Origin: Haliclona indistincta | Taxonomy: Eukaryota > Porifera > Demospongiae > Haplosclerida > Chalinidae | Assembly: GCA_964017065.1 (NCBI GenBank) | Contig: OZ024790.1 | Location: forward strand, 11,515,429-11,579,428 | DNA: 64,000 nt | Direction of reading: 5' to 3' | In this document: positions 38,867-61,098 of the stretch, piece by piece | How the letters are laid out: the number at the start of each line of letters is the position of its first letter | How positions within the stretch are numbered: the stretch's first letter is position 1 | Notes under the pieces: generated by a model | The model's input: the letters and a program-made list of their open reading frames with translations, nothing else | The model's database searches: none | What the model was told of the DNA's origin: nothing | Position numbers and translations under genes: made by a program

Positions 38867-41800
38867 TCATGTAGCTGGCTTTGTTGGTTCTTTGACATAA
38901 GGATTCAATGGTGTCCTTGTGTGACTATCACCGGGTATTGGTATTTCTGATGCTTGACTGATCATTCCGACCATGCGCATGTACGGTTCACCATCAACTG
39001 AATTAATGCTGACATGTGATACAGTGTCAGGAATCTCAAGATACATTGAGTTTGATGCTTGTTCTACTACAGGCAGTCTGGATGGAACAGGCAGTCTGGA
39101 TGGATCAGACAGTCTGGACGGATCAGACAGTTCCATGTACAATTCGTCAGCACTCTTTTGCTTGCATATGATCTCGTCGAACGTTGACCGTAGTTCACTA
39201 AACTGTGGTCTGTCACTGGAGTCTGCTTGCCAGCATTGCAGCATGATCATATAGCTGGATGAAATTGTGAATTAGGGGCGCTTGAGGATAATCACTTACA
39301 TTTCTATGGGGCAATTTTCAGGCTTCTCCATTCTGTAGCCGTCCATAAGCATCGATAAAAGATTCTCATTTGTGATATTCGGATAAGGAAAATTTCCTAC
39401 AAACCAAGTTACAAGTCATGTTATTAGATATCTACGTAACTTACCAAGTGTACTGATCTCCCACAAGCTAACTCCAAATGACCATACATCAGAGGCACTG
39501 GTGAACTCTCTGTTGATTATTGATTCGATTGCCATCCACTTGAGAGGCAGTCGAGCCTTTGTAGTCTTCACATACACTCCGTCACTAAGAACAGCACGTG
39601 ACATCCCAAAATCGGTAATCTTGAGGTACTTTCCAACACCAATCAGGATATTCCTGCAAGCAAGATCACGATGGACAACTTGCAAGCTAGCCAAATACTC
39701 CTGTGCAAATTTAAGCAACCATAATAAAAAAGGATGATGCATGCATAGTTTCACGAACCATCCCAGAAGATATTTGGTAGGCGAATGATAGAAGATCAAT
39801 GCTGGGTTGAAATGAACCAAGTTCTTTGTAGTCATCCATTTCATCCTGCAGTGATTTCAAAGTTTAGTTTTGTTTTCCCTTTGGTGTGCATGCAAACAAG
39901 TGTATTCAATACTAACCTGTTTGCGACAAGCGCATAAATAGGTCAACAGGTCACCGTGCTCTACAAACTCTGTTATCAAAGACAGTGGTTCTTGCAGTGT
40001 TACACATCCCAGCATGTTCACTACATGGGCATTATTGCCCTTTGCAATTCTCTTCATCAGTTCGATCTCTTCTAGAAAGTCTCTCTTTTCACTGCCTGTT
40101 GCATGGACTGTGAACAAAAACAAGTTAATATTGTGTACCAAATTTAGTGTTATTACACAAACACGTCAATTTTATGAGTTGCGAGTCTTCCTAGAAGTCA
40201 ATAACAGTAAATTACCAAGAAATTCACTTAGCTATAGTCTATAATGCAACCTACTAGTAGCCATGATAGTATATTACATTTGCTGTTCCACAATACCTTT
40301 GAGAAGCTTTACAGCAAGAAATTCCTTATTCTTTGAATAAGTGATCAACTTCCGGTTGCTAGGCTCGCCACACAGCTGCCCTTTGAATACTTCACCGAAC
40401 TCTCCCTCTCCTAATTTTTCGTGGATGCCAATTGACCATATTGGCACCTCCCAGTCGTCCAAGCAGGGAGACTCATCTATAGGACTACATGCAACAGAGG
40501 ACATGTTTGAAGAAGATGCTCTTCGACCTAACAGCCATGGCTGTTCTTCTAACACATTATCCTGTAAAGTAAGAAATATCTAATAGATTGTGCACTTATA
40601 TTTTATGACGTACGTGGATAAAAATTCTTTTTAGTCTTCTCTTGCGTCTGGAGAGGACTAGTACAATCACAGCGAAGCAGGTTCCCATGGCAACAAACAG
40701 TAGAACTGCTCCGAATGACGCAATGAAATAAAATGGTATTTTTAAAATTGTAGTGTCGGCATCTGTCACTGTAATGATAAAAATAAACTTACTGCTATTG
40801 ATTTGCTCACGTACGTGGCTGAGCTGTTTCTATAACTGTTGATTGTATAGGTGGATAAAATCTTGGAATAGTCGTCGTGGACTTTGTTTGTGACCACTCA
40901 AGTGAAACCCCTCTAGTGCTGTAGTTTGCTATACTGGTATAGCTTGATGAAACTTGTTGCTGTTTTTCTTTTAAAAGGACTGGACTGCCCCAATTGGAAT
41001 ATACAGTCACAAGTTCTTCCTGTGAAGTCTCAGTGTCGACGGTTACCTCATAGTGACTGCGCAACTGATGAAAACAGTCAAAGATCACATGTTTAAACCA
41101 AATGCATGGAAGACAGTATTATAGCTACTTCAAACATACCCACAGTAGCACATGGTTTGGACTGTTGTTGTCTATATCGAGAACAAACACAGTTGCACTG
41201 GGAATATGATGAGAGTACACAGTTCCCTGTGATGCAACATTAAAGCTGTTAATGTGGAAGGCTAGACATATACACGTACTGTAGTATTACTGGTCTGGAG
41301 AGGTATGCTTGTTGTAGGTGTGATAAGACCGATGCCTATTTGGTAAGTGAGACTTGCTGGTGAAGTGTTTGGGATTGATGGTTGTGCCCATTCGATGTCT
41401 ATCTCGCTAATGACAGCACCGAGCGGCATCCAAGAGACAGAAGATGCTGCTGCCGTGATATTTGTAATGTTGCTTGGAATAAGCGGAGGGATGTGCAGTT
41501 CACACCCAATGTGCCAGTCATTATATGGATGTGGCCTACATATTCGTAACTGTTTCGAAAAAATTGAGCATAAAACCGGCATTAATACTTGAAGTAGAGT
41601 ACAAATCTTACCAAATAACGACTTGTCAATGGGCTATCAATGAATATCTTCATTGGTCGTCTTTGCTCATCCGTCCATGAGTAGGTGAATGTATTTGCCT
41701 ATTGTCGCATTTTTGTGACAGACAGTGTAAAATTATTTTGTTCTTACGCACCTTGGGATAAACATTTCTCAAAGTTTCATAGAAAAAGTAGATTCCCTGT

Positions 41801-42239
41801 TTTTTCTTCTTTCTCTCGATTTCAAAATTTGATAAAGTGTTGAGACTGATTCCAGTGAGATTCCACCGCAGAGTGACATCATAGCGATGAACCAGTGGAA
41901 GCCAAGTTGCCCAGCACAGCAACGAAAAATGATCTAATATAAGACAAAAATTATAGCATTGCATTTCGAATGAAGAGAAATGATCGAGATACCATTAACA
42001 GCCTGCCTTGTTTCTCTGTATTTGTATCCTCCAGTTGTTACTCCTGAGAATTTAGTAAAGATCTAATGTTTTTTTAACTTACCTTGTTCTGATTTTTTAT
42101 TTCCTGTGTCACTTTTCTGGTTGGACAGTCCGTTCTTTGCTTGTCCATAGCTAAGAGTCACTGAGGGCTCTTGTCCAATGCTTAACTGTAGCACAACAGC
42201 CAAGACACTGATCACAAATGCAATCTGAATCGCTGCCAT
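38867..42239 (-). CDS. Receptor tyrosine kinase with FN3-like ectodomain (14 exons, 840 aa)
   Basis: Exons 5' to 3': 42239-42083, 42043-41993, 41933-41752, 41698-41612, 41549-41280, 41226-41140, 41064-40815, 40768-40614, 40561-40297, 40107-39917, 39845-39759, 39700-39445, 39396-39300, 39254-38867; phases are consistent. A signal peptide (MAAIQIAFVISVLAVVLQLS) precedes N-glycosylated FN3-like modules, a transmembrane helix (about 40750-40660; FIASFGAVLLFVAMGTCFAV) and a basic stop-transfer stretch. The kinase is intact: G-loop LGEGEFGEVFKG, Lys in AVKLLK, Glu in FLEEIELM, HRDLACRN, DFG, LPLKWMAIES, DVWSFG, CWQADSSDRP. The tail has candidate phosphotyrosines in ELYMEL, SMYLEI, EPYMRM (a YxxM PI3K-type site) and NPYVKE, plus a short SDPSRL repeat. 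Orthology to a named vertebrate RTK is not assigned. It faces the Ig/FN3 receptor at 42541. Confidence 0.93.
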
Positions 42240-42540
42240 CTGCCTCAAGTGCCGTACTCACTTGCGATCAATTATGAAACTGATAACTACTAAAAATTAT
42301 GATGACTTGTACACAATATGTTTTTAAAACTTTTGATGTTTACTAACTCTTCTTAGTAGGAGATTGTTAACAGCTGTTCAGTAAGTTTGTTAATTTACGG
42401 ATGATTGGATTCTTAATAGAGAGGCTTGCATAGAGGTGCATTTGGTATGCAATCATTACCATACTTGTTCTGTAGTGTGATAACATGCACTGCATGCATC
42501 AGAAGAATCAGTCTACACAATAGAGTGAGTATAGCTGTTT
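42240..42540. promoter_or_regulatory. Bidirectional promoter region between the RTK and the Ig/FN3 receptor
   Basis: The RTK start (42239, minus) and receptor start (42541, plus) are 301 bp apart and divergent. Co-expression is likely by position only; no core motif is identified. Confidence 0.5.
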
Positions 42541-45500
42541 ATGGTCTCCACCATGATCTTTATTCGAGCAGCAGTTTGGCTGTTTTTATGCTGCTACGTT
42601 ATAGGTTACTCTCAAGGCAATGTTTTCTTGGCTGGTATCTCTGTGACTCAATCATGCTTTGGAAGTAACATGTCAACTGTAACCTGGCTGAAAAATGGGA
42701 GTCCAGTTGTGATCGACGGAAGAGTCAAAATAATCAATTCAGAGAATTCGTCCAGTCTTACCATCAATCCTCTTCACACATCAGATGGTGGTCAGTATGA
42801 GTGCGTGGTGTTTACAGAGGAAAGTGGATCTACTGAAACATTTTTCTATGATCTTAAAGTAAAAAGTAAGATGAAGTGATACCAAATCTTAAATTACTTA
42901 TTTTCATACTCTTTATAGTACCAAGCAGCAATGCTACATTGACGATCATCCCGAATGCTACATTATATGAGACTATGCCAGTTAAAATTGCTTGCAATGT
43001 ATCAGTGAGTGAATTTGTGAATACACCTTTCACTATCATGAGAGAATGGTCAAGTCCAACACTCATTTCCTCTGGGGCTGACTACAACATCAGCGGTGAC
43101 ACTCTCAATATTAAGCAACTACTCAGATCACGAGACAATGGAAGATTGATCACTTGTGAACCAAAAATTATTCCGCTAAGTGACTATGTGCTACAGAGTA
43201 GCAGTGTCAATACAAGCACAACACTAAGAGTTCAGGGTACGTATGTGTGCTCCATATCAATAGGTTATATTTATATCTACCATGTCTGTAGCACTTACCA
43301 GTTCTCTATTCCAACCGGAAGTCAGTATACCAAGTGTTCCTTTGGCTGGGGACAGCTTTGCGATCACTTGCATTCTAGATGGAGTGGTTGAAAAACTAGT
43401 AGGAGTGAAAGTTGATGTCGAATTTATCAATCCACCTGGAGGAGTACCTATTAATCAAAGCCTAGAGGGATCTGCTTATGTTAGGCAGCAAATTTTTGAT
43501 CCTGTCAAGACTTCTGATGTTGGAAATTATACCTGCCGAGTTGTAATATCATATTTGGGGAAAAGGCCTTTAATGAATTATGATAATGGGACACTTCAAA
43601 TAAAAAGTTAGTCTCTAGATTTTGTACATAATTATTTTAATTGTCTTGTATCAGTTCCTCCTCAGGTGAGTCTCACCATCACTCCTCCTACCGCTCCTGT
43701 GAGTGAAGGCTCTTCTGTCAACCTGACCTGCACGGCTACATTGAACACCACTGTGGTAAACACAGCTGTAACAGCATCTATCGTATGGACTGGTCCTAGT
43801 AGAGACCAGTTTAATAGCAATTCATCTCGTGTCTCCATCATTAACATGTTACAGTCCTCACCTTATCAGAGTGTGATAGTGTTTGACCCAGTGTATAACC
43901 AGGACAGTGGACAATATTACTGCAATGTGACTATAACTAGCAATGACATAGCAGTACTACCTGTGATGTATGGCGCAACTGCCATAATCCTAGGTGAGAA
44001 ATGTCACTATAGTCAATGTACTGAAAATCCTGTTTACACAGTTATAATGCACATTATTAATGTACTGCAATTACATTACAGTATGTTGTTTACATTATAA
44101 TACTACTAATTTAAGTACAGCAAACACTACACAATAACTAAACAAGAATTTAATCATTTATACACAGTGCCAGAAGCTCCAGCTAACTGCTCTAGCACTG
44201 CCCTACTCCCACGACAAGCAACACTGATGTGGACTCCTCCTCAGAATAATCAAATCACTGGATATATTCTAAACTGTTCTGTATTCGTAATCTCTATTGC
44301 ATCTACCAGCACCACATTCAACATCACTAATATTCTTCCATACACTAAATACACATGCACTATAGTAGCTCAATACACTGATATTAGCAGTCCTCCAGCA
44401 CTCTGTAACTTTGAAACACCTCAAGAAAGTAAGTCTATCATATATGACGTGTGAGAAATGTAGTAACTGATAATCTTACCCTCTGCAATAGTCCCAAGCG
44501 ACTCTCCTCAGAAAGTGCTGATCATGAGCAGTATGACATCTGTTATACTGCAATGGCAGCCACCAGCACAACCCAATGGTATCATCACTGCATACAAGAT
44601 CACAGCAATGAACACACAGCAAACAGTGATTGCTAACAGCTCAATCACAAGCTACACATTTTGTGGTCTTCAACCTGGTCATCAAGTGAGCTATACCATC
44701 AGTGCCAGCACTGAAGCTGGTGAGGGACCTACTGCAAGTGTATCAATTACAACAATAAGACAAGGTGCTTACATGCACCATTGCCTACACGGATTCATAC
44801 TGCAACAATTTACATTCCTTTACAGCTTCCTCAAGTGTTGAACACCTAAATGGATTTGGTGGTACAGACAATGGGTTGAACGTGACATGGAGTCCACCAG
44901 CCACACCTCATGGGTTCATTACTCAGTACATTTTTATAGTTGTGAACAATGAGACAGAAGTGAGACCAGCTCAATACAGTGTCACTAAGACAACAGCATC
45001 TTATCATTACATCTCCGATACAAGTGAGTTTTGAAGCTCAATGGTATAATCTAACAATAATTTTCTACTCTACAATAGTATTTGGTGTACCATACTATAT
45101 CATCATCTTTCCACTGGATGATTGTAATACTATTGGAGACCCTGCAAGCATTGTGGTCTTCAGCAAACAACTCAGTTAGCTCCGAGAATTAAGATAAACT
45201 AATGGTCTGATATATCTTTATTGTACATGTACAGGTCCTTTGGTTGTTGTGATGTTCACCGCTGTTCGTTCAAGTGATGGTACTATGGTCATTGTTAGTT
45301 GGCAGCCAGTGACTCTGGAGCAAGCTCGTGGGTTTTTTGTATATCGAGTGATCATCACACCAGTTGTCACTAATAACAAGGGACAGTCAGTAGTCATAAG
45401 AACCGTATCTCATAATGAGACTAGTGTCACTGTGAGTGGACTGGACTCTAGTGTAGAGTACACAGTCAATGTGGTAGTAGTCAATGAGAATAATACGGAA

Positions 45501-47185
45501 CTAGTAGGACCCACTGAACCACCAATAACATTGACTGCACCAACAAGTGAGAGAGTTTCATTTTAAAAATAATAAGCAAAAAATTATTAGTTCCCAATTT
45601 CAACATAGGCCTACCTTTGGTATCTACTAATCTATTAGCAGGATTGGTGGTACCTTGCCTCCTTTCAATAGCTATTATCGTAGCTATTGTTGTCCTTGTC
45701 AAGAAGAGGTCAAATAATTATAAAAGCAGGTTTGTAGTAGCAAGCAATAAATTATAACTGAATTTACATTGTTTTCTAGTCAATCACCTCTTTATGATAT
45801 ACCGCTTGTCTTCGTCAATGCTGCATTTGATGGTCTACCATCACAGAATACGTGAGATGCTTTTTCTCACAATTGTGCTGATTTTATATTTCAGTTGCAA
45901 AGGTAGTTTACAAAAAGAGTACGAAACACCATCTGACGGCACACTTCAGAGTAACCATAGAAACAGCTGGTAATAATAATAAGTTGCATTGTCAATAATT
46001 ATTTTGAACTGTATTTATTTTAATAGTTTGCAAGAAGGAAACAGAGCTCCATCTGATGCGACAGTGCAGCTAAATCAGTAAGTTGTGTTTAATTTAAGGC
46101 TAAGTCTTGCTATTGTTCTCACAGTTTGCGAGAGGAGTACGAAACACCATTTGACTCAAAAGTGCAGGAGAGTCGGTAGATTATGCTATATTAAATTTTT
46201 TACCCATTGCTATTATTCTCACAATTATGTTATCAGTTTGCAAGAGGAGTATGAGACACCGTTTAATTCGAATGTGCATGACAGACGGTAAACAATCGTA
46301 TTTTGGTTCTGTACTGTTATTCTCACAATGACATTGTCAGTTTGCAAGAGGAGTATGAGACACCATTTGATGCAAAGGTTCAAAGGCATTGGTGAGCTGT
46401 ACTTATCAATGGCTGGCTATTTTCTATCATTCACACATTGTTAGCTTACAAGGGGACTATGAAACACCATTTGTTCCAATGGCAGTTCATTCAGGAATAG
46501 TAGAGCAACAACCATTGAACCGGTAATTTAACTATTACAGTGGAGCCCCTTTAATCTGGACACCTCTGGGACCCATGAATGGTGTTTTGCTAAGAGAGGT
46601 GCCTGATTTCAGGGCTCAATAAGCATGCAATGTACCACCTGTAGTGTCCTTATAACAGTGAGTGTCCTTATCTGAGGGGTGTCCACTGTGAAAGGTTATA
46701 CCGTACTATACAGTCAAGATGGTAACTTATCATAATTGTTTTATGATGCAGTAAACCTTCAGAGTATGAAAGGCCAGTAAGTTCCAAAACTAATCTTGTT
46801 ACTTCACATAAAATGTAAGACATGGCTAGGCAATGGCTGATGTTGTGTATACTTCTTTAGTTCATGTAGAGAAGATGATATTGAAATGAAACCCTGTCCA
46901 GCCTACAATGCTAACAGACCTCAATCTATCATAGACACTACTGTTACTAGCACTGCTACTGGTTACTACATGACTGTTGTAAGCAGTGATCATTGTAGTG
47001 AAGCTAGACATTGTACCAGCACAACTCAACTACTATTGCAAGAAGATATTGAAGCCTCAACCGAGGCAGAAAAAAAGCTTCAAGATCCTGTTGAATATTC
47101 GACTGTCTCTAAACCTGATGTTCGAAAATGCAGTCCCACTTTCAAATCAACTGGTGAAGCTGTTTATGCAGAAGTTGAGAAGTAA
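42541..47185 (+). CDS. Ig/FN3 type I receptor B with repeated YETP cassettes and ITIM-like tail (19 exons, 1124 aa)
   Basis: Exons: 42541-42865, 42919-43236, 43292-43606, 43655-43993, 44168-44428, 44492-44764, 44826-45023, 45079-45174, 45235-45546, 45609-45729, 45780-45851, 45895-45969, 46027-46077, 46125-46175, 46237-46287, 46341-46391, 46445-46522, 46752-46814, 46861-47185. Exon 1 gives a signal peptide and the first Ig domain; exons 2-4 one Ig domain each; exons 5-9 FN3 domains (one split over exons 7-8), all joined in phase 1. Exon 10 is transmembrane (about 24 apolar residues, then KKRS). Exons 12-17 are phase-2 cassettes with EYETPS, a degenerate unit without Tyr, EYETPF three times and DYETPF; exon 18 has EYERPV. 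The last exon carries VEYSTV (47090-47107) and VYAEV (47162-47176), both V-x-Y-x-x-V. The ligand is unknown. ATG 42553 is an alternative start. The tail is almost identical to receptor C. Confidence 0.9.
46538..46688. mobile_element. Tc1-type MITE in a cytoplasmic-tail intron of receptor B
   Basis: CAGTGGAGCCCC at the left and CCACTG at the right, with a TA flank on the left (right TA decayed to TG). It occupies the same intron and position as the element at 58455-58581 in receptor C, so it predates the tail duplication. Confidence 0.75.
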
Positions 47186-47390
47186 CAGTGAACTAGACTT
47201 GATCATACTAAAAATTAATGACATGTTTTCACTGCTACATTTACAATCACTAAATATTATTACCTTGAGAAGTACTATTAAAGATAGATTCGTATATAGT
47301 AAAAAACTACAATGAAAACACCAACAATGTTCTGGAATTAACATTATTGTGCTGCATTAAAATTCTCTGTGGCTCATTTATTCTGTCTTG

Positions 47391-48239
47391 TACTTAGACA
47401 ACTTAATGGTCAAACTACACATTCCGATTGACAGACAGAGCTACTTCATCACTTACAATGGAGTGGAAAGAGATATGAAGGAGAGACAAACTCCCACAAT
47501 TACCAGTACAACAATAAGTACTAATTCCACATTTTTGTTCAATATTAAATTAAAGAAAGCACAACGTACTCATATTCAGTTACAGCTGTCAATAGTGTTG
47601 GTAATACAACTAGCGACGTAATAAACTTCACAACTTTTCAACAATTAAGGTATGTAGAGTAGGAACAGCTTTATATAAAGATTCTTTACAGGACCTGTCA
47701 TTTGTTCCAGTATACAGCAGTTTTAACACGTCGTGTTACACTAAGAGTGGTCTCCTCCTTCTTTGTCAGATATAATCTAACTAGTGACTTCACTATTATC
47801 ACTCTTAACACCACTGTCACTATCAACACTAATCCGTACACCAACTATACCTGCACATTGACACCACAGACCATTATTACACCAGCACTCCCACAATATG
47901 TAACTTCGAGTCTCCACAAGACAGTGCGTATTTGTAGGCAATTTAATTATGTGACTATTCTTTTTTTGCATGCAGTCCTGAGTGGTCCTCCTCAGGATTT
48001 CACTTCATAAGCAGTATGCATATGACATCTGTTATGCTGGAATGGCAGCCACCAGCACAACCCAATGGTATCATCACTGCATACAAGATCACAGCAATCA
48101 ACACACAGCAAACAGTGATTGTTAACAGCTCAATCACACGTTATACATTTTGTGGTCTTCAACGTGGTCAGCTAGTGAGCTATACCATCAGTGCCAGCAC
48201 TGAGGATGGAGAGGGACCTATACTGCAATTATACAATAA
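47391..48239 (+). pseudogene. Degenerate FN3 exons from a third receptor copy
   Basis: Three blocks resemble ectodomain exons of receptor B. About 47391-47648 is an FN3 end (TYSYSVTAVNSVGNTTSDV) with a frameshift. 47691-47924 matches exon 5 (NPYTNYTCTL...CNFESPQD) with stops and a frame change. 47976-48239 matches exon 6 (LEWQPPAQPNGIITAYKITA...TISASTEDGEGP) with an early TAA. No signal peptide, membrane segment or tail follows. It looks like the remnant of a tandem duplicate truncated where the oxidase-like gene now lies. Confidence 0.8.
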
Positions 48240-48401
48240 CTCAGAGAAAAGTCAGTTTACTGCAACAACTACATTGATCAGTAAGTTTATCTATGGACCA
48301 ACTAACTGCATGTCACACGTACCTATGCACACACTATACGTATTGTTCAATTCATTTTATGTAAGATGAGTTCGAAGTCCATGACTTGCTTGCATGCGAG
48401 G

Positions 48402-50293
48402 TTATTCTTGTGTGAGTGGACGTCGATAGAGAATTTTCTGCAGAGTGGAATTCACAAAAATATATTTGTGGTCAGGATCAGTAGATCCCAGATGATCAAA
48501 CACTTTCTTGAATTTTTCTAGATTTTCGCCATATCCTTCTTGAATTTTGTCGAAAATTCCATCTATGTGAGTCCACTGCTTTGCCCAGTGTGGTAGACCA
48601 CCCAATTTGAGCCATTCTTCGCCAATCTCTTTGAATAGCTCTCGATAACTGTCTGTCCCTGCGAAGCTGAGGACCTCGATATAAGCGTAGTTTGTGACAT
48701 TCGCGTCTCCTTGTGCAGATGGACAAATAAGACAATTGCCCTTTGCAATGACTCGGAAATCAATGCAAGCACTCAGTGGAAATGACTGGACTTCACAATT
48801 CCCTATGCCTAATCCTTTAGCTGTAAGATAACAGATGTGTAGAAAGAAGTTATGCATGCAGTGATAACTGAATGCATGACATGCATATGTAATTTTTAGC
48901 ACACACCAGTCAAAATTAAGTACAAGCAAGTTGGATAGTTTAAAACTTCGCAATACCATGTAAAAATTTCACTAAGTAAATTTTGGATATTTTAGTGCAC
49001 TGCCTGGGATGCATGATAAGGATTTTTCATTTCAATGATCGCTACATGCATATAGCTTGGAATTGACATGGTGGCTAGAACTAATTATAAAAGTCGGTAA
49101 TAACATGAAATTGTTAATCTATGTCTAACTGTGGTGTAAACTATAGATACATGAGGGTATTATGTAGAGTTTATTATAAGAGTATACATTATATATAGTA
49201 TAATTATACATGTGAGTATAGGCTTGGATTCACATACTGGCAAGGTCTCACTACAGTGTTAGGAATGATCTTGGTGATATTCAATGTTAAATATTAACCC
49301 TGAAGAAACCTGATATTGGGGATGATGCGAAAAATACCACTCCTAAAGCCTTCAATGGTATGGCTTTCCAGGATGTTAGGCTAATATGTTAGGCTATCAC
49401 CCATGTTATGTTAGGCTAGCTTAATTATTCTTAATATAATTGTACCTTTTGCCGCTGTCTCTACTCTATTAATCACAAATTGAATTGCTTGTAAAATTGT
49501 CTGGAAGCTGTCGTCATCATCAATATTGAAGGGAAAGGCAAATTCCATGCAGTAGGCAACCGAGAAATCAATTCCATAGCGAAAGTGAATGGAATATGTG
49601 ATTTCTTCCATTTTTTGTCCAACTGGGTTAGCTGCTTGTACAGCTTGGAAGCCCAGAAACAGAAGCAGTGGAGTTAGGCTGGGATAACGCTGGAGAACAG
49701 GTGTGCCAATTCCACCCATTGCAATTCCAGTTAGCGAATCTGTGAGCTTTTGCATCATCTGAGGTTTTCAGTAGGAAAAAATTCCAACTCAGGTAGTACA
49801 TTATGCAGATGAAAGCAATAGAATTTCTCACTTACACTGGGCTGACGTAACATTCGTCAGTCAAGCTACGCACATTCCGCATCCATACTTGGTCAGATTG
49901 AGGCCTCCAACAATCAAATGGAAGACCAGCTAGAAGAGCACCAAAAATATCGGAAACTCCACTGAATGGAAACCAGAGGAACTCAGTGGTCTCGTTGTTT
50001 TCCACATAGGATTTCAAAGTAGGAGAACTTCCATACAACAGCTCGCCAATTGTCGGATAAGAAGTGCGGAGATAGGAGGTTTTCATCTCTTTTACACTAA
50101 TCGTGACCTCCACAATCACTCCGAACACACCGAGACCAAGCTTCACAGCATTCATGACATCAGCCTCGGTGAGATTGTCGGGCAACGATGATATGTCTAT
50201 GTCATCAGGGAAAGTGCGGAGTTGACCGCTTTGGTCGACAATCTTGATTTTTGTGATCAGATCACTGAGTGGTGATTCATTTTTACCAGTTCC
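48402..50293 (-). CDS. Aldonolactone-oxidase-like FAD oxidoreductase, 5'-incomplete (3 exons visible)
   Basis: Exons: 50293-49838, 49758-49446, 48820-48402 (stop TAA). They encode about 396 residues resembling the sugar-1,4-lactone oxidase family (vanillyl-alcohol-oxidase fold; L-gulono/D-arabinono-lactone oxidases). The first exon opens GTGKNESPLSDLI, typical of the ATHGTG region late in the FAD domain, then VKLGLGVFGVIVEVTI. The C-terminal exon has GLPHWAKQW, YGENLEKFKKV and DPDHKYIFVN, the ALO signature. The last junction is phase 1 and exact; the first uses donor GTGTAAG. Missing is the N-terminal part with the FAD-attachment region, about 100-130 residues. I found no such exons up to 52.8 kb, where repeats intervene and another gene begins, so the gene may be truncated or carry a far upstream exon. 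Activity is therefore doubtful. Confidence 0.8.
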
Positions 50294-50627
50294 CTACATA
50301 ATACTTAATAATAATTATACAAGTCACAATTATTAATGTACATTAAAATTGTTATTGAAACTAAATTCAGTCTTGCATGCAGAGCCTGGAGTTACAATTA
50401 ATTGTTGAATATGGATAAACTATTATTTTATTCATACAGCCAGGAGTCTAAGAATGGTTATTTTTGTTCAGCCAAGCCAACACACACAATGCTATACAAG
50501 TGTTTTTTCAGGCAACCATTTATGCTCGCTCCTGAGTGGGCGTGATAGTCTTAACCACAAGTTGTACGAATCACGTTTTTCAAAGTTGAAGTTTACTTCA
50601 ATCAACTGTAATGTGATCGTAAAATAA
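50294..50627. other. No exon found upstream of the oxidase-like gene
   Basis: AT-rich sequence with no recognisable coding exon on the minus strand, although the N-terminal FAD-domain exons would be expected here. Confidence 0.5.
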
Positions 50628-50988
50628 AAGAAAAGTAAAAAGATTTCTATTGAAATCAAAAGGATGTAGGGTTGTGAAATCTACCACTGGTTCACAATGT
50701 AAACTAACAAGGAACAAGCATGGAATGGTAACACGATTGACTTGCTAACAGACTATAGATCCCTACATCAGTGGCTGCTGTGGTTGGCTATAGCTAGTTC
50801 AGCTAGTTGCTGTTGACTGACACCTGACGTGCATTCAACTTAATTATGTACAGCCACTGATGTAATGGTCTGTTAGCAAGTCAATCGTGTTACCTTGTTC
50901 CTTGTTAGTTTACATTGTTGACCATGCAGTGGTAGATCTCACAACCCTACATCCTTTTGATTTCGATAGAAATTTTTTTAATTTTCTT
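50628..50988. mobile_element. Foldback element, copy C
   Basis: Arms homologous to copies A (10877-11258) and B (14215-14611), with a deletion in the right arm (about 50872-50900 against its partner). It adjoins reverse-oriented repeat X sequence on its right. Confidence 0.85.
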
Positions 50989-51231
50989 GTTTGTGTCCTT
51001 TTTTCCTTTTTCAGTGAAGTGCAGTTCAATATCATGCACGTACTGTGCCGTCTTTGACTTGTTTCCACCATTGGTTTAGTTTTCCTGTAGTTGATGGCTT
51101 TTCTTTATTATCATAACAATTTGTAGCTAAAAATAATTGTATTGCTGTAGATATCAGCTCGCCTACATGTACGCATGCATGAATGAATACATACAGTGCA
51201 TACGAGCCCCGCCCACACTTGTTTGTAGACC
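50989..51231 (-). mobile_element. Repeat X, partial reverse copy
   Basis: The reverse complement of the X 3' end: 'cttgtttgtgtcc', 'cagtgaagtgcagttcaatat', 'ccaccattggtttagttttc', then 'cgagccccgcccacac'. The 'cttcgaagactcc' and 'ctggcaagcgcagaatgg' blocks of X resume beyond the THAP palindrome at about 52479-52560. The palindrome is therefore inserted into, or part of, an X copy. Confidence 0.65.
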
Positions 51232-52460
51232 TATAGATAGTTTCGTGGCAAAGGTGTGATGGAATGTTCGCGGCTAATATTGACCCTAAACTGCGGAAAT
51301 GACGTCAGAATTATGACGTCGCGTGACACGCATCAATTGGCTGGAGGGATAGATTTGTACAGCGCGGTACAGCGTTCAGTGGAAAACGTGCGTTTCTTCA
51401 GTGCTGACCAACTTCCATCGGTTAGCCTTATAAAGGGTCGAATATAGAGAACAATTGCTGCGTTTTTGGATGCTCTAGTTCGGCAAAGAAAGGCTGTTTA
51501 GTAATTTTTTTCCGCTTTCCATTTCACAATCAAGCCTGGGTACGAGGCTAGGGTAGAACTGTGGATAAATGCTGTACTGACGTCGAGCAGTGTGGAAACC
51601 TCGACGTTACTCAAGAATATGCAGCTTAAACTTATAGAAGGTAGTGAAATACAATTTTGAAGGCTAATAGATTGTGTTTTGGTTGGTTCATCTTGCTCTT
51701 CGTCAATCCGCTGCTCAACTACTACTGTTTCATCTTGCTCTTCGTCAATCTGCTGCTCAACTACTATACTGGTTCATCCTGCTCTTCGTCAATCTGCTGG
51801 TCAACCACTGGTCCCTGCTGTTCTTTGCGTCTTCTTGCTCTTCATTGCACCATAGATTATTGCACTGTTTTGGAGTGATTTAGCTGCTCGGTCACATCAT
51901 ATCACCCTTCTATTAAACAGTCTATTATATCTATCTAAATCAGACCCTGTTCCTTGTGTATAGCCTTCTTGTAAGCAGTAGGAAACACACTTGGTACATA
52001 GTCAGGGTGACTAGAATCATGGTGGGGCTTACCCAGTCTATTAGCCTGCAAAATTGTATTTCAAAGTTAAAAAATACTTTCTATAAAGTTTAAGCTACAG
52101 ATTCTTGAGTAACGTCGAGGTTTCCACACTGCTCGACGTACAGCATTTATCCACAGTTCTACCTTGGCTTGCCATTATGAAAAGGAAAGCTGAAAAAACT
52201 TACCATACAGCCTCTTTGCCGAACTAGAGCATCCAAAAACGAAGCAATTGTTGACTATATTCGACTCTTTATAAGGCTAACCGATGGAAGTTGGTCAGCA
52301 CTGAAGAAACGCACGTTTTCCACTAAACGCTGTACCGCGCTGTACAAATCTATCCCTCCAGCCAATTGATGCGTGTCACGCGACGTCATAATTCTGACGT
52401 CATTTCCGCAGTTTAGGGCCGAGAACATTCCATCACACCTTTGCCACAAAACTATCTATA
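51232..52460. mobile_element. Long inverted repeat (~430-bp arms) carrying decayed THAP-domain coding sequence in both arms
   Basis: Arms 51232-51672 and 52032-52460 are inverted copies around a ~360-bp centre. On the plus strand at about 51449-51590 and on the minus strand at about 52256-52095 the sequence reads CCVFGCSSSAKKG or CFVFGCSSSAKR, then FFRFP or FFQLSF, then VELWINAV and (minus copy) RRAVWKPRRYSRICS. This is the order of a THAP zinc finger (C-x-x-G-C-S ... F-x-x-P ... W-x-x-A-x-R ... C-S). Each copy is broken by a stop or frame change. THAP domains occur in P-type and some Harbinger-like transposases; no catalytic domain is visible. Confidence 0.7.
51675..51830. repeat. Three ~45-bp tandem units in the centre of the palindrome
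   Basis: 'catcttgctcttcgtcaat' or 'catcctgctcttcgtcaat' recurs at about 51689, 51731 and 51776. On the minus strand the unit encodes an acidic QIDEEQDE-type motif, but stops interrupt the frame. Confidence 0.7.
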
Positions 52461-52874
52461 CGGCGCGGTTATAAATTATCTGGCAAGCGCAGAATGGTGA
52501 TCCTATACGAGCTTACCGTTCTTCGAAGACTCCTGACAAATATGTGTTCTCCGTGGTCTATACGGCGTGGCGATACTCAAGCTAGTGCTTTTGTGGCTGT
52601 TGCACTGTACAACGAGTAATAAAACCGCTGTAATAGAACGACGAGGGTTGTGGCGTTACTAAGGAAATCGTTTTGCGCAGTTATGCGCAGTAATGCTGTA
52701 GTAGTCGTGAGTAGTCGTTACCGTAGCTGTAGTAATGCTGTAATAGCTGTAGTAGTCGCGAGTAGTCGTACCGTCTAGCTGTAGTAGCATTATCTATGGT
52801 AGCATAGTCACGAGTAGTCGTTAGCCGATCCCTTCTCTAGGTACACGCCCTGTCACGTAGTATGTGCACTGAGG
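52461..52874. promoter_or_regulatory. 5' region of receptor C with short GTAGTCG repeats
   Basis: Begins with the tail of a reverse repeat-X copy (to about 52610), then imperfect repeats of 'tagctgtagtaatgctgta' and 'gagtagtcg' up to the receptor start. No promoter motif is assigned. Confidence 0.45.
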
Positions 52875-55800
52875 ATGATTGCTGCAATCGCTATTACTAT
52901 TTGTGTTCTTTTCGATACATCTGCATCCACGGTGCCAAGTGGCTCCTTTACCATCGAGGAGGGAGCAGTGTTGGGTAGCTTTGATGTGACTGGAGCTCAG
53001 CGCGACATTCACCTCACTACTGGACTGACCTACGAGATCACCTGCAAAGCAGGCGCCGTTCCTGGGCTTGTTGATCAGCGCTGGCACAGAGACGGCAATG
53101 CAGTTGAGAAGAGAGGAGAAAGCGCTGTTTGCAGTAGCTCGCTAACGGAGGTGTTCTACAATGATGATGTCGACAACAGCAATCACTGGGTTTTGAGGTT
53201 TTGTAATTTCGACACCACTCTAGCGGGATCGTACACTTGCCGACCATCTTCAGACTACAACAAATCTCTGATCATCAGTGAAGGTATGACACACACTGCT
53301 GCTGCATAGCACGTGTGGACATTCTCCTGTTGCAGGTAATCCAAGCGTTATTGTTGAGAAAGACGTCATTATTTCATCTGGCAATTTCGCAACTGGTACC
53401 ATAGTGGCTATCTTCTTGTCCGGCATGCCTACTCCTGCACCTGCTAACGTGACTTGGTTATTTAATGGTGCAATGTTGGGCCCTCCTGGAGTAGAACAAG
53501 ATGATAGAGCTCTTCGCTTCAATGCGTTTATTCTCGACCAAGCTGGTGTGTACACTTGCCTAGTGAACACTTCAGCTGGTCTAGGTATGGACAGCTTGAG
53601 AGTCCAGATAAGAGGTATGAAAGTATTTTAACACACTAATCTAACTGATGTCTTTGTGATTCCTAATGTAGCACAACCAGATCTATCACTGAGTGTGGAG
53701 TATAACGCAGATCTCATAACTAGTGGACCAATAGAAGTTCTCCATGGCGCTAACCTGACTCTGTCCTGTATTGACCGCCATGCCTTCCCTCCTCCCTCCT
53801 TTCAGTGGTTCAGTAATGGAGCTGAGATAAGCAACACTGATCTATCAACATCTGTCCAGACCATTGGTAACAACCAATCTCAACTATCTCTGTACAATGT
53901 GCAAGGAGGCAACTTCACACTCAAGTGCACAGCAACCAATAGTGTGGGCAGTAGGTCCAGAATGATCACTGTATCAGTGCTGAGTAAGTGCATTGCATTA
54001 ATATGCACCTTGACACCAATTTCCTGTAATAGCTTGATAATTGCAGTGTGTGAATTTGCTTTCTTTTCATCCACAGCTCCACCACCTCTCACAAGCATCA
54101 CTCCACAAGTAACTAGTGGTCTGGTGGGAAACAACCTCACTCTACTATTGGTCTTCAATGGTGGACACACTCCACTGACTGCTCAATGGAGAAGAATGAC
54201 TACCAATGGAGTTAGTGAAACTATAGTTGAAGGAGGGAGAGTGATTCTAGATGGTCAGCACTCAGTTAATCTCACCATTACCGACCTGGTTCTCAATGAT
54301 GCTGGAATGTATGAGCTGAATGTGACCAATCAAATTGGCAGCAGTGTCTTCAAATATTCAGTTCATGTCTATGGTGAGTGTTGAATGAATAAACACAGAG
54401 AATGGAATCTTTACTCTCTTACACACATACTCCAAATGCTCTTTTCCTCAGATCGTCCAACTGTTAAAAACATCAGCCCATTGACTAGAGGCGTACCACC
54501 TAACTCTCCTTACACTGTAACAGCTCAAGTCTCTGGAGGAACTCCACTTGTACAAGATACAGATATTCTCTGGTCTACTGCTCCAATCACTCAAGGGTTT
54601 CCATCTTTCAATGGATCTGTTGCCTCTTTGCACTTCTCTAACTTGACTTCACCTGTCTTGGTGACTCTCACTGTTCAACATCCATCTGGGAATCGCACTC
54701 TGCTGTTTTACATACCCATTCAACGTGAGTGCATGTGTGTGAATGAAATTATGTACATATGTGTGCGTCTCACTGACCATCAAAGGTTTTGTGTGATTCG
54801 AGAATACCATCAACCACACAGCTGGCAGTGTGGTACTTTACATGTGCCTGTGTGTAGAAGAATCATTCACAGCTTTTTAAACTACAAATGAGCTTTCAAT
54901 GGTTTATGCTTATTGAATTATTATGTTCTATAAATAGAACAATGGGTTCTGTTTTTAGAGGTCACTGTGTTCATTGAAAATCTCTAAATTCAGTGTGTTA
55001 TCTGTGTGGATCAATTACCTTTGTGTTTTGATAACCATTCTTTTTTTGTTGTCTTTTCAACCTCACAGAACCGCCCTCTCCTCCTATGAGTGTTCATCTT
55101 CAACAGATCTCACCTTGCACAGTGGTGCTTTCCTGGGAGCTAGGTCAAATGGACCCCAGTCAATCTGCCTCAGTCGATCAAATATTTGTGGAACAAGCTC
55201 CTAACGACGCCAGTCCTCAAATTTGGGAGAGGATTCGGTCCGTCTCTTCGAGTGATACCAGTGTCACGATTAACCTTGATCCTGATCAGATCTTGCGCTA
55301 TCGTGTGGCTGCGGTGAGCGACGTAGCAGGCAAGAGCGATCCTGTTGAAGCTGATCGACTCGCTAATTCAACTGTAGAAGGTGGGTGTTAATCGGCCGTT
55401 CTTGGTATGGCTGCTGTCATGACCAGCTCATGCCTCATTACCGCATGCAGCAATGAAGGTGTTGTCAACTTTTGTGGCAGCAGTGTTTTCAACATGAGTC
55501 AACATGTGACTCCTTACTGAGTATAGTTGCTAATTGTGGGAACTGTCTTTGTTTGCTGGATGTCATTTACACTGACTCCACTGCACACAAACAGGCACGT
55601 GTCGTGAATTATCAGCTTTAGGGTTAATCACAGCCTCACATGATGATTGGGACTTTCTCCTTTGCATTGCACCAGCTAGTCTTGTCTATATGCTGGGTTG
55701 TCTGACCATGTATCTTGTTTCAGTGCCCAGTATGTATACTTTCACACGCTGATCTAGTGAGCTTATTTGCAATTCTGTAGTAAGCATGTCTTTTGCTACT

Positions 55801-58800
55801 ATTTTTTTGTTCTTTGTGTAACTACTCAATATTTGTCTTGAGGCCTTGTAGTGCGCTACAGCTGCTGGTTGTAAAAGTGCTTTTGTAAATCTCAGGGACT
55901 TTGTGGATTGCATGTAAAACATGGAATGTGGAATGGAATGGAACCGTGGAATGGAATGGAATGCCGCCATTATTGCGTGGTCTCGCACTTGAAACTACTA
56001 AACCCTAAACCCAAGACCATAAAAACCTTCGCCTAACAGCGCCCAGTATTCGCCTAACAGCGCCCAGTATTCGCCTGACAGCGCCCAGTATTCGCCTGAC
56101 AGCGCCCAGTATTCGCCTAACGTGCCAGAATAGTACTGGGCGCCGTTAGGTGCATACTGGGCACGTTAGGCGAATACTGGGCGCTGTTAGGCGAATACTG
56201 GGCGCTGTCAGGCGAATACTGGGCGCCCGGCTGTCAGGCGAATAGTGAATACTGGGCGCTGTTAGGCGAATACTGGGCGCTGTTAGGCGAAGGTTTTTAT
56301 GGTCTTGGGTTTAGGGTTTAGTAGTTTCAAGTGCGAGACCACGCAATAATGGCGGCGATTCCATTCCATTCCATTCCACCGTTCCATTCCATTCCACATT
56401 CCATGTTTTACCGACAATCGGACTTTGTGTACAGTCCTGGTTCATTTCCTCTCAAAAAGAAACAAGACTTGTTTTGTCTAAGTGGTTTCCCCATTGACCT
56501 CAGTGTGGGATTGCAGTCTCTAAAACAACTCATGGGCTGGTCCATTGGTCTTTTGATATGGGCTATACAGCGGTAGTATTGCATCTCTGAGGCTTAATTC
56601 CTGAATAGCTTTGTTGTGTCAGGCACTTAGAGATTATAAGTTCTTTCAGCTGTTGTAACAAATAGCTTCCTAGAGCTTCCTAGAGCACCTGAAACACTCA
56701 CTGATAGGTAAATTATAACTTGACTATGCTACAGCTGTGAAAAAATAACACAAAAATTCTATTTTCCATTCTTTAGGTTTCTCACCAACTGTTACTAAAC
56801 TCACTATGGTACCAGCTTCTGCTACTAGTATTAGTATCAGCTGGGGCGCTCCCTCCGGTCATGACTGTTATAAGATTGTTGGCTACAATATCACTTGTCG
56901 AAATCCTACTACCAGCAGAAAAATGATGTCTAACACAGCCACGACGCTGCCTGTGACTAACCTGAGTCCGAACACATCTTATCAATGCTCCGTGGAAGCT
57001 AAGATTCGCAACAAAGAAGGGATTCCTGTTGCTTTTGATGCATCACCTGCTGATATCGACAGCTATACTCTACCACTGCCTCCCAATCGGCCCTCTCGTC
57101 CTGAAGTGTCCTCGTCCACTCACAACAGCATCACTCTTGACCTGTTCCCTGTGGTTCCTTCTGTTTCTCTAGTACAGATCATAGTTGTCAGACTACCGAA
57201 TGACGACAATCCCAGAGGCTCTCCTGAGACACTTTATCCTAACAATGACAGGTTTTCTACCTACGATAAAGTCCATTCTTCCAGTGACGATTATAGACCT
57301 TACATCGCCGCTCAGTTGAATGCAAATGAGCTTGGAGCCACTTTTGTCATCGGGGAAGACACTGACAATAGAAAACGTTCTAATCACATTAGAAATGGTC
57401 ATCTGGCACCTTCTAGCTACTATACCTGTTTTCTTCGCGTGTATTCTTCGTGGGTAGGCGGGCAGACGTTCACCATTCATAATTCAAGTGTCTTCATGTT
57501 CCCTGTGATTCGTACTGCCCCAGGTGAATCTTCTCCCAGCTCTTTCAATGGCGCAGCTGTGGCTGTTCCTATCTTGTTCCTGATTTTGATTGCAGCTGCT
57601 ATTGGGATAGTGTTTGTCGCTATTTTATTTTTCAGGTTAGTATTACTCACCTTATCTCAATCTCTCTTTCTTTCCCTTTGTGATAAATGGCTACTATGCA
57701 TAGTCATAGTCCCATGTCTTTACTGTAAGGTGTAGGGTGACTGGCAGAGGTTCCTTACCTTGCTACAATATTTAACCCCTCTCTAGCTTGGTGTTTACTC
57801 AGTCCAGCTGCATATGTTCTCCAAAAGTTTACACAGCCATTATGCTATCCAGTTCTCATGTTCCCTAATTAGATTTGTTGTCTACAGCTGACCAGCGCAA
57901 CCCTAAAATAGCCTTTGACAACAATTGGTGAACTTGTTCAACACATGTACATCCCCCCGAGTTCCCTTGTGTGGTTTTTGCTTAATACTTCAACTTCTTT
58001 CTTTAGAAATCAGATGAGAAAAGGTGAACCAGATACTGGTCATGAGTACGAAACACCATTTGACTCAAAAGTGCAGGAGAGTCGGTAAACTATAATTTAT
58101 CATTATATGTTTATCCTTTGCTATAATGTTCTCGCAATTACATTATCAGTTTGCAAGAGGACTATGAGACACCATACTATTCGAATGTGCATGACAGACG
58201 GTAAACGATCGTATTTTGACTCTTTGCTGTTATTTTCACAATGACATTGTCAGTTTGCAAGAAGATTATGAGACTCCATTTGATGCAACAGTTCAAAGGC
58301 ATTGGTAAGCTGTACTTATCATTGACTGGCTATTTTCTATCGTTCGCATCAAATTGTCAGTTTACAAGGAGACTATGAAACACCTTTTGTTCCAACTGCA
58401 ATTCATTTAGGAACAGTAAAGCAACAACCAGGAAATCGGTAACTATTACATGTACAGTGGAACCCCTCTAATCCAGACACATAGAATCTATATATAATGT
58501 CCTGATTTCAGGGATCAAATGAGAACCATATACAGTGATCCCACACTAACACTAGGTGTCCTTATTTGAAGGGTTCCACTGTATACCATACACAGTCAAG
58601 ACGATTATTGATAACTATTATAATCTTAGTAATCCTGCTGAGTACGAAAGGCCTGTAAGTTCCAAAACTAATCTTGTTTCTTCACATAAAACGTAAGACA
58701 TAGCTATAGACAATAGTTGATATTGCATGTGTATACTTGTTTTGTTCACTGTAGAGAAAATGATATTGAAATGAAACCATGTCCAGCCTACAATGCCAAC

Positions 58801-59070
58801 AGACCTCAATCTATTATAGACACTACTGTTACTAGCACTGCCGCTGGTTACTATATGACTGTTGTAAGCAGTGATCATGGTAGTGAAGCTAGACATTGTA
58901 CCAGCACAACTCAACTACTGTTGCAAGAAAATATCAAAGCCTCAACCGAGGCAGAAACAATGCTGCCAAACTCTGTTGAGTATTCAACTGTCTCCACACC
59001 TGATTTTCGAAAGCGCAGTGCCACTGTCGAATCAACTGGTGAAGCTGTTTATGTAGAAGTTGGGAAGTGA
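52875..59070 (+). CDS. Ig/FN3 type I receptor C with YETP cassettes and ITIM-like tail (13 exons, 1125 aa)
   Basis: Exons: 52875-53283, 53336-53614, 53672-53983, 54077-54373, 54452-54724, 55069-55380, 56777-57635, 58007-58084, 58150-58200, 58254-58304, 58361-58438, 58630-58692, 58755-59070. A signal peptide (MIAAIAITICVLFDTSAS) is followed by five Ig-like exons (C-W-C frameworks in exons 1 and 3; exon 2 has Trp but appears to lack the first Cys), an FN3 exon, and a long fused exon holding further FN3 sequence plus the transmembrane helix (VAVPILFLILIAAAIGIVFV). Extracellular junctions are phase 1 and cytoplasmic ones phase 2. Cassettes carry EYETPF, DYETPY, DYETPF, DYETPF and EYERPV. The final exon has VEYSTV (58975-58992) and VYVEV (59047-59061). 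Its acceptor has moved about 10 nt from that in receptor B because the original AG became TG. The ligand is unknown; an immune or recognition receptor is plausible. Confidence 0.9.
55914..56411. repeat. 498-bp palindrome with internal 21-bp tandem repeats
   Basis: Starts gtaaaacatggaatgtgg and ends with its exact complement. The arms contain ggaat-type pentamers, 'cttgggtttagggtttag', and several 21-bp units (cgcctaacagcgcccagtat), which reverse about 56130. Noncoding; it lies in the 1.4-kb intron 6 of receptor C. Confidence 0.9.
58455..58581. mobile_element. Tc1-type MITE in a cytoplasmic-tail intron of receptor C
   Basis: The ends CAGTGGAACCCC and GGGTTCCACTG are flanked by TA on both sides. 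It is the positional equivalent of 46538-46688 in receptor B. Confidence 0.85.
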
Positions 59071-59298: not shown

Positions 59299-59616
59299 AT
59301 CTAGATCAATACTCTGAGAAATTGCAACTCGCTTTGCAAGAAGCACATGATAATGTGAGACAGGAAACAGACAGACAATTGCAACATCAAAAAGAGATCT
59401 ATGACAGGAAAGTTCATGGTCCTGCGTTGGAGAAGGGAGACATTGTGTGGTTGCACTCATCTGTGGTACCAAGAAACAAGTCGAAGAAGTTGCACCATCC
59501 CTGGACTGGTCCGTACGAGGTTGTCACCAAGCTGTCTGATGTAACCTACCGGATTCGTGACATTGACAAGAAAAGGATCAGGAGAGTTGTTCATTTTAAT
59601 CGTTTAAAGCGATGTC
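59299..59616 (+). pseudogene. Ty3/Gypsy integrase C-terminal fragment
   Basis: The frame reads NLDQYSEKLQLALQEAHDNV, then RKVHGPALEKGDIVWLHS, HPWTGPYEVV and VVHFNRLKRC. This is the GPY/F module that ends the integrase of Ty3/Gypsy LTR retrotransposons. No catalytic core, protease, RT or LTR is seen. It ends abruptly at the truncated end of the piggyBac gene on the opposite strand. Confidence 0.85.
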
Positions 59617-61098
59617 ATCAACAGGAGCTGATCGGCACGGTCAACACCACCCATGTACGTGTTGTACTCGACAATTGCAGCCGGCTTTTGCACTGTTTCG
59701 CGTCCACCAGGTGCATGTCTGTTACGTCTCTGCACGCCGACGTGACCAGGTTGGTGAATGGTTGTTAGTATCGTTACCTCTCTCTTATCTGACCACTTGA
59801 TTACTAGCATTGACTCATCCACATTCACTACTTTGGTTTCTCCTTTCTTGATAGGTGGCTTGATCGACTCGGAAATGCCTTTTCTGTTCAGACGCAGTGT
59901 GCCACATGCTCCAAAACCATTTGCACTCAAGTCAGCAAACAGTGCCGGGGAAGTGTAAAAGTTATCTGTGTAACAATGGTGTCCCCTGTTCTTCAATGGC
60001 TCGACAAGCTTCATTACCACAGCATGGGTCAATCCATTTTCCATGGATCCAAGGCTGTCATCTTTTCCTAATGAGATGAGGTATATAGTAAGGCACACAC
60101 ATAAAACATGAATGTAACTAACCAATGTAGAGGTGCCAGTTGTAAACATATCCAGTGTGTGCATCAGAGAGAACAAACGCCTTCAGCCCCCATTTTTTGG
60201 GTTTTTTCGGCATGTATTGGATAAATCCCAAACGCCCTTTATAGCTGATCATCGTCTCATCTACGGATATCTCTTTGTGTAGAGTATATTGCGCCTGGAT
60301 GGTGATCAGTGGTTCAAGAAAGGGTCGAATCTTGAACAGCGCATCATGACCTGGTTCTCCCTTCTTCTTGTACTTTGAGTTATCATTGATATGAAGAAAC
60401 TTCAGTATCATTGTGAACCGGTCTCGTTTCATCACCTGTAAGAACACATTGTACTAAGTATCAACTTCTATGTTATTATTGTTATTACTCTTTTACAGCT
60501 ACTTACTTTGCGGAACGTGTCACAGACATAAGGCCAGGACTTGCTCCAGTGAGACTCGATGGAGGGATATTTGATGAAGCCCATCACCAAGATCACAGCA
60601 ATGAATCGTAAAAGCTCTGGCACTGTAGGCTCTTGCTTCAACCACTGGCTTACTCGAGATTTGGTTGTGACGTTGTTGGAGCTTTTGTACTGCTCACTGT
60701 ATAACTTCGTTTGCTCTATGATATCCTCTAGCATCGCTTGGGTGACGAACCGGGAGAAGTAAGCAAACGGAGACTTGTCAGACTGAGTGGTAGCTATGCC
60801 TGGTTGGAGTACGTACTGCGGAATCTGACCACTGTCTCTCAAGGAAGCATCATCACCAGCAGCATTCTCTACATCCATTTCATTCATAACATCCATCTCA
60901 TTCATATCATTCTCAACATCCATGTCATCTCTCTCTGGACTCCTACTACTAGTCTCTTCATCCTCATCAATCCCCATCATCCCACTCTCTTCTAAGTAGC
61001 CATCAAACTCATCTTAATTCACTGCCTTCACTCAGTTCTTCATCATTCTCTAGCTCATCTAACACTTGTTCTACCGTAAGAATTGCTCTAGCAGCCAT
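59604..61098 (-). CDS. piggyBac transposase (PGBD4-like), truncated, with an N-terminal frameshift
   Basis: Cut-and-paste transposase of the piggyBac superfamily. Exons: 61098-60507, 60435-60123, 60067-59604. The start is MAARAILTVEQVLDELENDE; the frame then shifts near 61010 into DEFDGYLEESG. An acidic N-terminus follows, then the DDE_Tnp_1_7 core with all three catalytic aspartates visible: SVDETMISYKGR, YTDNFYTS and GGVDRADQ. The protein stops shortly after the third Asp, where homology ends at the Gypsy fragment, so the C-terminal part and its cysteine-rich domain are missing. The frameshift and truncation make it probably inactive, though the core looks young. It could be the source family for the TTAA-flanked MITEs at 3990 and 27120, but no matching termini were found around it. 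Confidence 0.87.

Follow-up and report, generated by a model that had tools for sequence, protein, structure and literature searches.

Paired immune receptors of mammals such as the CEACAMs arose by replacement of the tail under a shared ectodomain: paralogues share the ectodomain and often the transmembrane (TM) exons, the cytoplasmic exons are replaced by those of another signalling type, with inhibitory or switch motifs (immunoreceptor tyrosine-based inhibitory and switch motifs, ITIM/ITSM) exchanged for activation motifs (ITAM), and gene conversion is described around the exons of the binding domain (PMC2832619). Arrays of YxxP motifs, taken here as binding sites for the SH2 domain of Crk/CrkL (PMC8266394, PMC6029619), are found in the receptor DCBLD2, whose seven YxxP are needed for CRKL SH2 binding (PMC6029619), and in p130Cas, in which they recruit Crk (PMC8266394). 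The present analysis concerns a window of 64,000 nucleotides of the sponge Haliclona indistincta (contig OZ024790.1, here contig C8, positions C8:11515429-11579428, in a genome of 144.03 Mb and 46 contigs), which encodes two receptors with immunoglobulin (Ig) and fibronectin type III (FN3) domains, B and C. Receptor C is probably a chimera, in which an ectodomain and TM segment of the receptor tyrosine phosphatase (RPTP) type, as in the gene C2, are joined to an old B-type tail with five YxxP motifs.

As in the CEACAMs, closely similar ectodomains stand in C and C2 on different signalling tails; unlike them, a YxxP docking array appears to have taken the place of a phosphatase, the fusion point is internal to an exon and the host is a sponge. 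LAR/PTPRM-type RPTPs resemble C and C2 in having an Ig and FN3 ectodomain with an RPTP-like membrane-proximal domain, but C has no phosphatase domain and is therefore not an RPTP. Many intracellular YxxP motifs also characterize the transmembrane receptors DCBLD1 and DCBLD2 (PMC6029619), in which, however, the ectodomain is of the CUB/LCCL/discoidin type; in the receptors described here it is Ig/FN3, nearly each motif has its own small exon and Crk binding is predicted. Above the Pfam cut-off, Ig and fn3 models alone were detected and CUB, LCCL and discoidin domains were absent; because of this other ectodomain, C is not a member of the DCBLD family. The substrate domain of p130Cas likewise holds several YxxP sites read by Crk (PMC8266394), but in a cytoplasmic adaptor instead of a receptor tail. 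Clustered Ig receptors with varied tail tyrosine motifs are represented by the Botryllus fester co-receptors (PMC12065747), which, unlike the sponge receptors, are linked to allorecognition. The open-licence literature, as far as its excerpts go, yielded no account of an RPTP ectodomain joined to a YxxP tail.

Receptor C and the phosphatase gene C2

Receptor C (52875-59070; here and below, genes and exons of the window are on the forward strand unless noted) is a complete open gene model of 1125 amino acids (aa) in 13 exons, all in frame and with GT-AG at all internal junctions. From 52921 to 58033 its ectodomain and TM segment, encoded by exons 52875-53283, 53336-53614, 53672-53983, 54077-54373, 54452-54724, 55069-55380, 56777-57635 and the start of 58007-58084, are homologous, introns included, to C2 (C8:11321578-11326155), located 247 kb from C. 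The DNA identity amounts to 89% over 52921-55883 and 88% over 56423-58033; outside the 5' end and an inserted element, the windows compared range from 84 to 99% (one, of 21 sites, 100%), and past the junction they fall to 39% and 27%. The inserted element (55884-56422), absent from C2, is an inverted repeat in an intron of C with arms (55963-56072 and 56247-56356) that are 100% complementary. In a protein search with the FN3-TM exons of C (57 matches), one close match was obtained beside C itself, at C8:11324876 (90% over 287 aa), the remaining ones being at most 44% identical, and a DNA search with the same block returned four matches, C and C2 plus the tail cassettes alone of B and of a further receptor, D.

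By domain and motif, C2 is an Ig/FN3 RPTP: the exons that follow its TM encode a phosphatase (Pfam Y_phosphatase, 8.4e-76) with the motifs WPDKNVP and HC|SAGVGRTGT, the latter interrupted by an intron; downstream, another such domain begins. Reading the tail of C to the stop at 59070 revealed no protein tyrosine phosphatase (PTP) catalytic domain, and none of the 132 matches listed to the C2 tail lies near C. A second copy of the phosphatase domain was observed at C8:11334212-11335038, about 4-5 kb downstream of C2, with 74-93% identity by exon to its first PTP domain.

In C, homology to C2 ends at 58033 and homology to B begins at 58044. The fusion junction (58034-58044) lies within the exon 58007-58084 and reads NQMRKGEPDTGH / EYETP, in frame, the sequences across it being RNRMRKGEPEISSRHESATGNE in C2, RNQMRKGEPDTGHEYETPFDSKVQESR in C and LREEYETPFDSKVQES in B. 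As both breakpoints are internal to exons and the B-side introns continue in C, the join points to genomic recombination within exons, and neither to intron-mediated exon shuffling nor to retroposition. The chimera is thereby precisely delimited: the kinds of its parents can be named, and the junction between them is known.

The ectodomain of C contains, according to Pfam and a model of modest confidence, Ig and FN3 domains followed by an RPTP-like membrane-proximal domain (57157-57474; hhalign to fish PTPRS, E 1.3e-5, prob 80.5). Searched against other species, the FN3-TM region gave 4 matches among 7987 scored candidates, the best with 29% identity to a repetitive FN3 protein and another with 22% to fish PTPRS; a PDB sequence search with the membrane-proximal domain gave nothing useful. 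Five further loci (L041, L042, L043, L050 and L057) encode a C-like membrane-proximal domain (30-36%), with no PTP within their 1.5-kb flanks. Dense arrays of FN3 exons were also noted elsewhere, on contigs C10 (6.10-6.51 Mb), C5 (0.92-1.04 and 5.08-5.21 Mb), C3 (15.6-16.0 Mb) and C1 (5.94-6.34 Mb); among the matches listed, PTP exons are interleaved with FN3 on contigs C10 and C5 and adjoin it on contig C3, with none for the contig C1 array. These FN3/PTP exon arrays are probable tandem RPTP gene arrays.

The shared tail and the copy of B

Receptor B (42541-47185) is a complete open gene model as well, with 1127 aa in 19 exons and GT-AG at all internal junctions. Its ectodomain (42541-45546) consists of four Ig-like exons, the first with the signal peptide (42541-42865, 42919-43236, 43292-43606 and 43655-43993), and four FN3-like units (44168-44428; 44492-44764; 44826-45023 with 45079-45174; 45235-45546); Pfam recognizes three fn3 stretches, two I-set and two Ig_3 domains, the others being read from the exon pattern. 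The TM exon (45591-45729), with a hydrophobic stretch that was read directly, is followed by the tail cassettes (45780-46814), small exons of 45-78 bp, all in phase 2, nearly each with one YETP or YERP. In B they carry YDIP (45780-45851), YETP (45895-45969), a cassette that has lost its tyrosine (46027-46077; EGNRAP, present in B and D as is the upstream YDIP exon), four further YETP (46125-46175, 46237-46287, 46341-46391 and 46445-46522) and YERP (46752-46814). The terminal exon (46870-47185) bears GYYMTV, VEYSTV and AVYAEV (AVYAEV/AVYVEV among the copies) before the stop; VEYSTV agrees with what we take to be the ITIM pattern. In C the cassettes (58044-58692) are YETP at 58044-58084, 58150-58200, 58254-58304 and 58361-58438 and YERP at 58630-58692, and the terminal exon (58755-59070) is 83% identical in aa to that of B. 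Seven YxxP are thus counted in B, seven in D and five in C, each tail having at least five clustered intracellular motifs. Pfam has no family for the B terminal exon, and the FN3 and tail region of B had no database match at E<=1e-3 among 7993 scored candidates.

The original prediction held that B and C have a nearly identical tail, terminal exon and introns included, under clearly different ectodomains. The sharing was borne out, but not the near-identity. Aligned together with their introns, starting at 46135/58044 and reaching the stops, the tails agree in 869 of 1071 DNA columns (81%; 60 gap columns) and in 166 of 199 aa (83%); their synonymous divergence (dS) is 0.239 (95% bootstrap 0.153-0.340) and their Jukes-Cantor (JC) intron distance 0.262 (0.212-0.323). 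In C the shared part starts at GAGTACGAAAC, inside the exon 58007-58084 and not at an exon edge, and B has three more tail exons upstream (YDIP, YETP and the one without tyrosine). The difference between the ectodomains was confirmed, there being no DNA match between them at E<=1e-3 and only weak protein matches of the Ig/FN3 type (best 20/66 aa, E 4e-4).

A genome-wide search with the B terminal exon (E<=0.1, 6/6 candidates scored) found it at four places, all on contig C8 within 36 kb: B, D (93%), C (83%) and a relic with a stop, E (52%). Since the exon was found at only these four places of the genome, in one stretch of 36 kb, the tail common to B and C is not due to chance. A 1101-bp DNA search recovered the same four places and 13 short matches within query positions 434-625, in one intron, which look like dispersed repeats.

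Receptor D is, judging by the alignment, a recent copy of B within a 10.3-kb duplication, of which the left copy spans 40348-50627 and the right one, with 92.6% identity, 66410-76696 (coordinates of the right copy, of D and of F beyond the window are extrapolated window positions). The block holds the 5' part of a receptor tyrosine kinase gene, A (38867-42257, reverse strand, head to head with B), whole B, an FN3 relic and part of an oxidase-like gene; the right copy carries D. The relic (48021-48240) is 91% identical to the region of the second FN3 exon of B (44532-44750), in agreement with the earlier claim that a third, degenerate ectodomain lies between B and C.

The comparison of these copies bears on the explanation first proposed, in which B and C would be a pair of recognition receptors with diversifying ectodomains and a tail that gene conversion keeps similar. 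A common tail under different ectodomains is what such a process would leave, and similarity within the cassette array is patchy, the intron Y2>Y3 being more similar between B and C (0.89) than between C and D (0.80) or B and D (0.70), so that the tail copies may to some extent have exchanged sequence in patches. Homogenization of the tail is nevertheless not supported by the divergence values: dS between B and D is alike in tail (0.090, 0.047-0.139) and ectodomain (0.079, 0.055-0.104), and the B-C tail, with its 0.239, is the more divergent of the shared parts, dS between the ectodomains of C and C2 being 0.110. Introns give the same contrast, with 91 differences in 412 sites in the B-C tail (35/222 without one long intron, still above C-C2) and 72 in 961 between C and C2 (p 2.9e-13; this and the other p values of the B-D, B-C and C-C2 contrasts are uncorrected and the contrasts were picked after seeing the data). 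Moreover, divergence in the B-D pair peaks in the cassette-array introns, where homogenization would have left it lowest (53/308 vs 18/490 in the ectodomain introns, p 1.4e-10), while the cassette exons (4-9%, vs 3-8% in ectodomain exons) do not stand out; this peak could itself come from exchange between tail copies. As the ectodomain of C was replaced and did not diverge in place, gene conversion of the tail is a very unlikely account of the B-C pair. An excess of synonymous divergence was also seen in the B-D ectodomain exons (43/548) vs the downstream stretch 47405-48900 (46/1460, p 1.5e-5), within which lie the FN3 relic and a portion of the oxidase frame; this excess could reflect imported exon patches or old alleles.

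An assembly artefact, either a misjoined contig or an unpurged haplotype copy, was considered too. The divergence of B and D, only about 3-4% both in ectodomain introns (19/547) and downstream (46/1460), might represent allelic variation if the animal is highly diverse. However, one side of the duplication interrupts gene A, and the two copies, 26 kb apart, have different sequence between them. The halves of C, moreover, have diverged in DNA by about 9-12% and 19% from their respective relatives, for which reason neither is a misplaced copy, and they are joined in frame. Such an artefact is thus very improbable.

Of the parts that C has in common with B and with C2, the tail has diverged further. 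The simplest history of C as a chimera is an old tandem array of B-type tails, one member of which was later given a C2-type ectodomain; different local rates could alternatively produce the contrast between tail and ectodomain.

Other mosaics and the direction of exchange

More members of the family were expected from the original prediction, and the genome search provided D, the relic E, F, G and C2 to C6. A DNA search with C 52860-55400 gave eight matches: C, C2, C3, C4, C5, C6 and, on contig C1, two fragments of some 100 bp. The genes C3 and C4 match C over the signal peptide and Ig1-Ig4 alone, ending at 54383, C5 up to 54065 and C6 up to 53519. In C4, C-type Ig domains run into B-type FN3 domains (read in the sequence; 55-85% aa to B), so that C4 is on this evidence a second chimera; C5 adjoins B-type FN3 matches by coordinates alone. 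Receptor F (extrapolated 82957-87520) has B-like Ig4 and FN3 exons (78-86% DNA) and a different tail with a single YETP, a search for which gave six matches in the genome, five in F itself and one weak (E 0.02). No match for the B terminal exon was found beside C3-C6, whose own tails are unread, nor any to the PTP tail of C2 (132 matches listed, 102/268 candidates scored). The domain shuffling that had been proposed for these receptors is strongly supported, both by the ectodomain of C, a copy of an RPTP ectodomain, and by C4, with its C-type Ig and B-type FN3 domains. Between C5 and C, 12/312 sites differ in Ig3, 72/639 in Ig1-2 and 26/137 in the flanking introns, which looks like an exon-sized conversion, in a single case that was chosen after seeing the data. 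Some exons showed a ratio of nonsynonymous to synonymous divergence (dN/dS) above 1 (C-C2 Ig2 1.79 and Ig5 1.16; C-C4 Ig2 2.21; B-D FN1 3.17 and Ig2 1.03), with a bootstrap P(dN>dS) of just 0.54-0.95, too low to establish positive selection on the ectodomains.

These mosaics could be read as evidence of a reverse polarity, in which the C-type ectodomain was originally on docking receptors and C2 gained its phosphatase later. The signal-peptide segment of C (52859-52920) is common to C, C3, C4, C5 and C6 and absent from C2, and a C-type Ig head on B-type FN3 domains is present in C4 and apparently in C5, where the FN3 part is placed by coordinates. The stalk of C and C2, however, has the RPTP-like membrane-proximal domain, with close-range matches in C and C2 only. 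Since this domain is found in C, the phosphatase form is probably ancestral for the stalk, and from sequence and modelling the RPTP architecture is probably the older one for the C/C2 stalk. Polarity reversed for the whole ectodomain is therefore regarded as unlikely, although it may hold for the Ig1-Ig4 head.

The broken look of some relatives raises another explanation, that C is a real fusion but a non-working gene, unexpressed or decaying. Its sister partial copies C3, with a frameshift in Ig4, and C6, with a stop in Ig1, look broken; in C, by contrast, 1125 codons are open, the splice sites are kept and dN/dS is about 0.3 for FN2-4 with TM and for the tail, which makes decay an improbable description of this gene.

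Several points weigh against the chimeric origin of C as stated, or limit it. The first 61 bp of C are not derived from C2, so that C is at least tripartite, and Ig1-Ig3 of C are nearer to C4 than to C2, hence C2 may not be the direct donor. The dN/dS values, although below 1 on both halves of C (0.57 for the whole C-C2 ectodomain, 0.31 for FN2-4 with TM and 0.32 for the shared B-C tail), are pairwise and no proof of selection on C itself. Shuffling each tail 20000 times gave as many YxxP in 0 (B), 0 (D) and 6 (C) shuffles, a weak control because the cassettes are tandem copies. The three top PDB matches (of 967) to a predicted model of the membrane-proximal exon of C are human PTPRM FN3-4, but the model has a mean pLDDT (predicted local distance difference test) of 59.6 and this match is supportive only. 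In the best explanation that embraces all these genes, heads, stalks and tails are modules that have been exchanged again and again as the wider locus evolved.

Predicted signalling and neighbouring genes

We infer that the tail of C is a kinase substrate and a docking platform for Crk-type adaptors, and that C and C2 share a ligand and have opposed outputs. After ligand binding or adhesion, a membrane or Src-type kinase would phosphorylate the YETP/YERP tyrosines, which would then attract an SH2 adaptor of the Crk type, in the manner of p130Cas or DCBLD2. The genome has a Crk-like gene on contig C9 (C9:2813445-2815118); compared with human CRK, its SH2 exons show 60% and 67% identity and its SH3 shows 49%. 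With its closely similar ectodomain, C2 would bind the same ligand as C and dephosphorylate, both forming a pair with the same sensor and opposite output, and C2 could act on the C tail when the two gather at one ligand. The paired reading is reasonable in view of the CEACAMs, in which a shared ectodomain likewise came to stand on another tail; C may function in the manner of a paired receptor with an RPTP origin, the same sensor having perhaps been rewired to the opposite output.

An immune or allorecognition role of the locus is put forward as a hypothesis, by which it would be a candidate for the receptor side of sponge self/non-self recognition. A bolder proposal, speculative and rather unlikely as a whole, is that the contig C8 locus is a sponge allorecognition-type complex that builds matched enzyme-substrate pairs: one ectodomain would be placed on the phosphatase C2 and on the YxxP substrate tail of C, engagement would be read as a balance of kinase (e.g., the receptor tyrosine kinase A) and phosphatase, and head, stalk and tail modules would be reshuffled into new pairs.

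Among the best 120 of 945 matches to kinase A, the best organism-named relatives are sponge proteins, Geodia barretti first (46%), with Dysidea avara, Corticium candelabrum and Oscarella lobularis, then molluscs and others. Its copy beside D (near extrapolated 66410-68300) has the 5' part alone, cut near the start of the kinase domain, from which a truncated kinase receptor could be made. The oxidase-like gene part, named by eye, lies to the left of C (48402-50293, reverse strand), and this left copy stops at a dispersed repeat (50628); its counterpart beside D has further 5' frames (L031, about 519-3933, reverse strand). Downstream of the receptor cluster a large cadherin/Fat-like gene was read from open reading frames (L033, 3268-9555), and frames at 59604-61013 (reverse strand) look, by eye, like a piggyBac-type transposase. 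Elsewhere in the window, at 13032-14036 and 19516-22801, there are, respectively, four tandem copies spaced 235 bp (86-99% identity) and a repeat family spaced about 500 bp.

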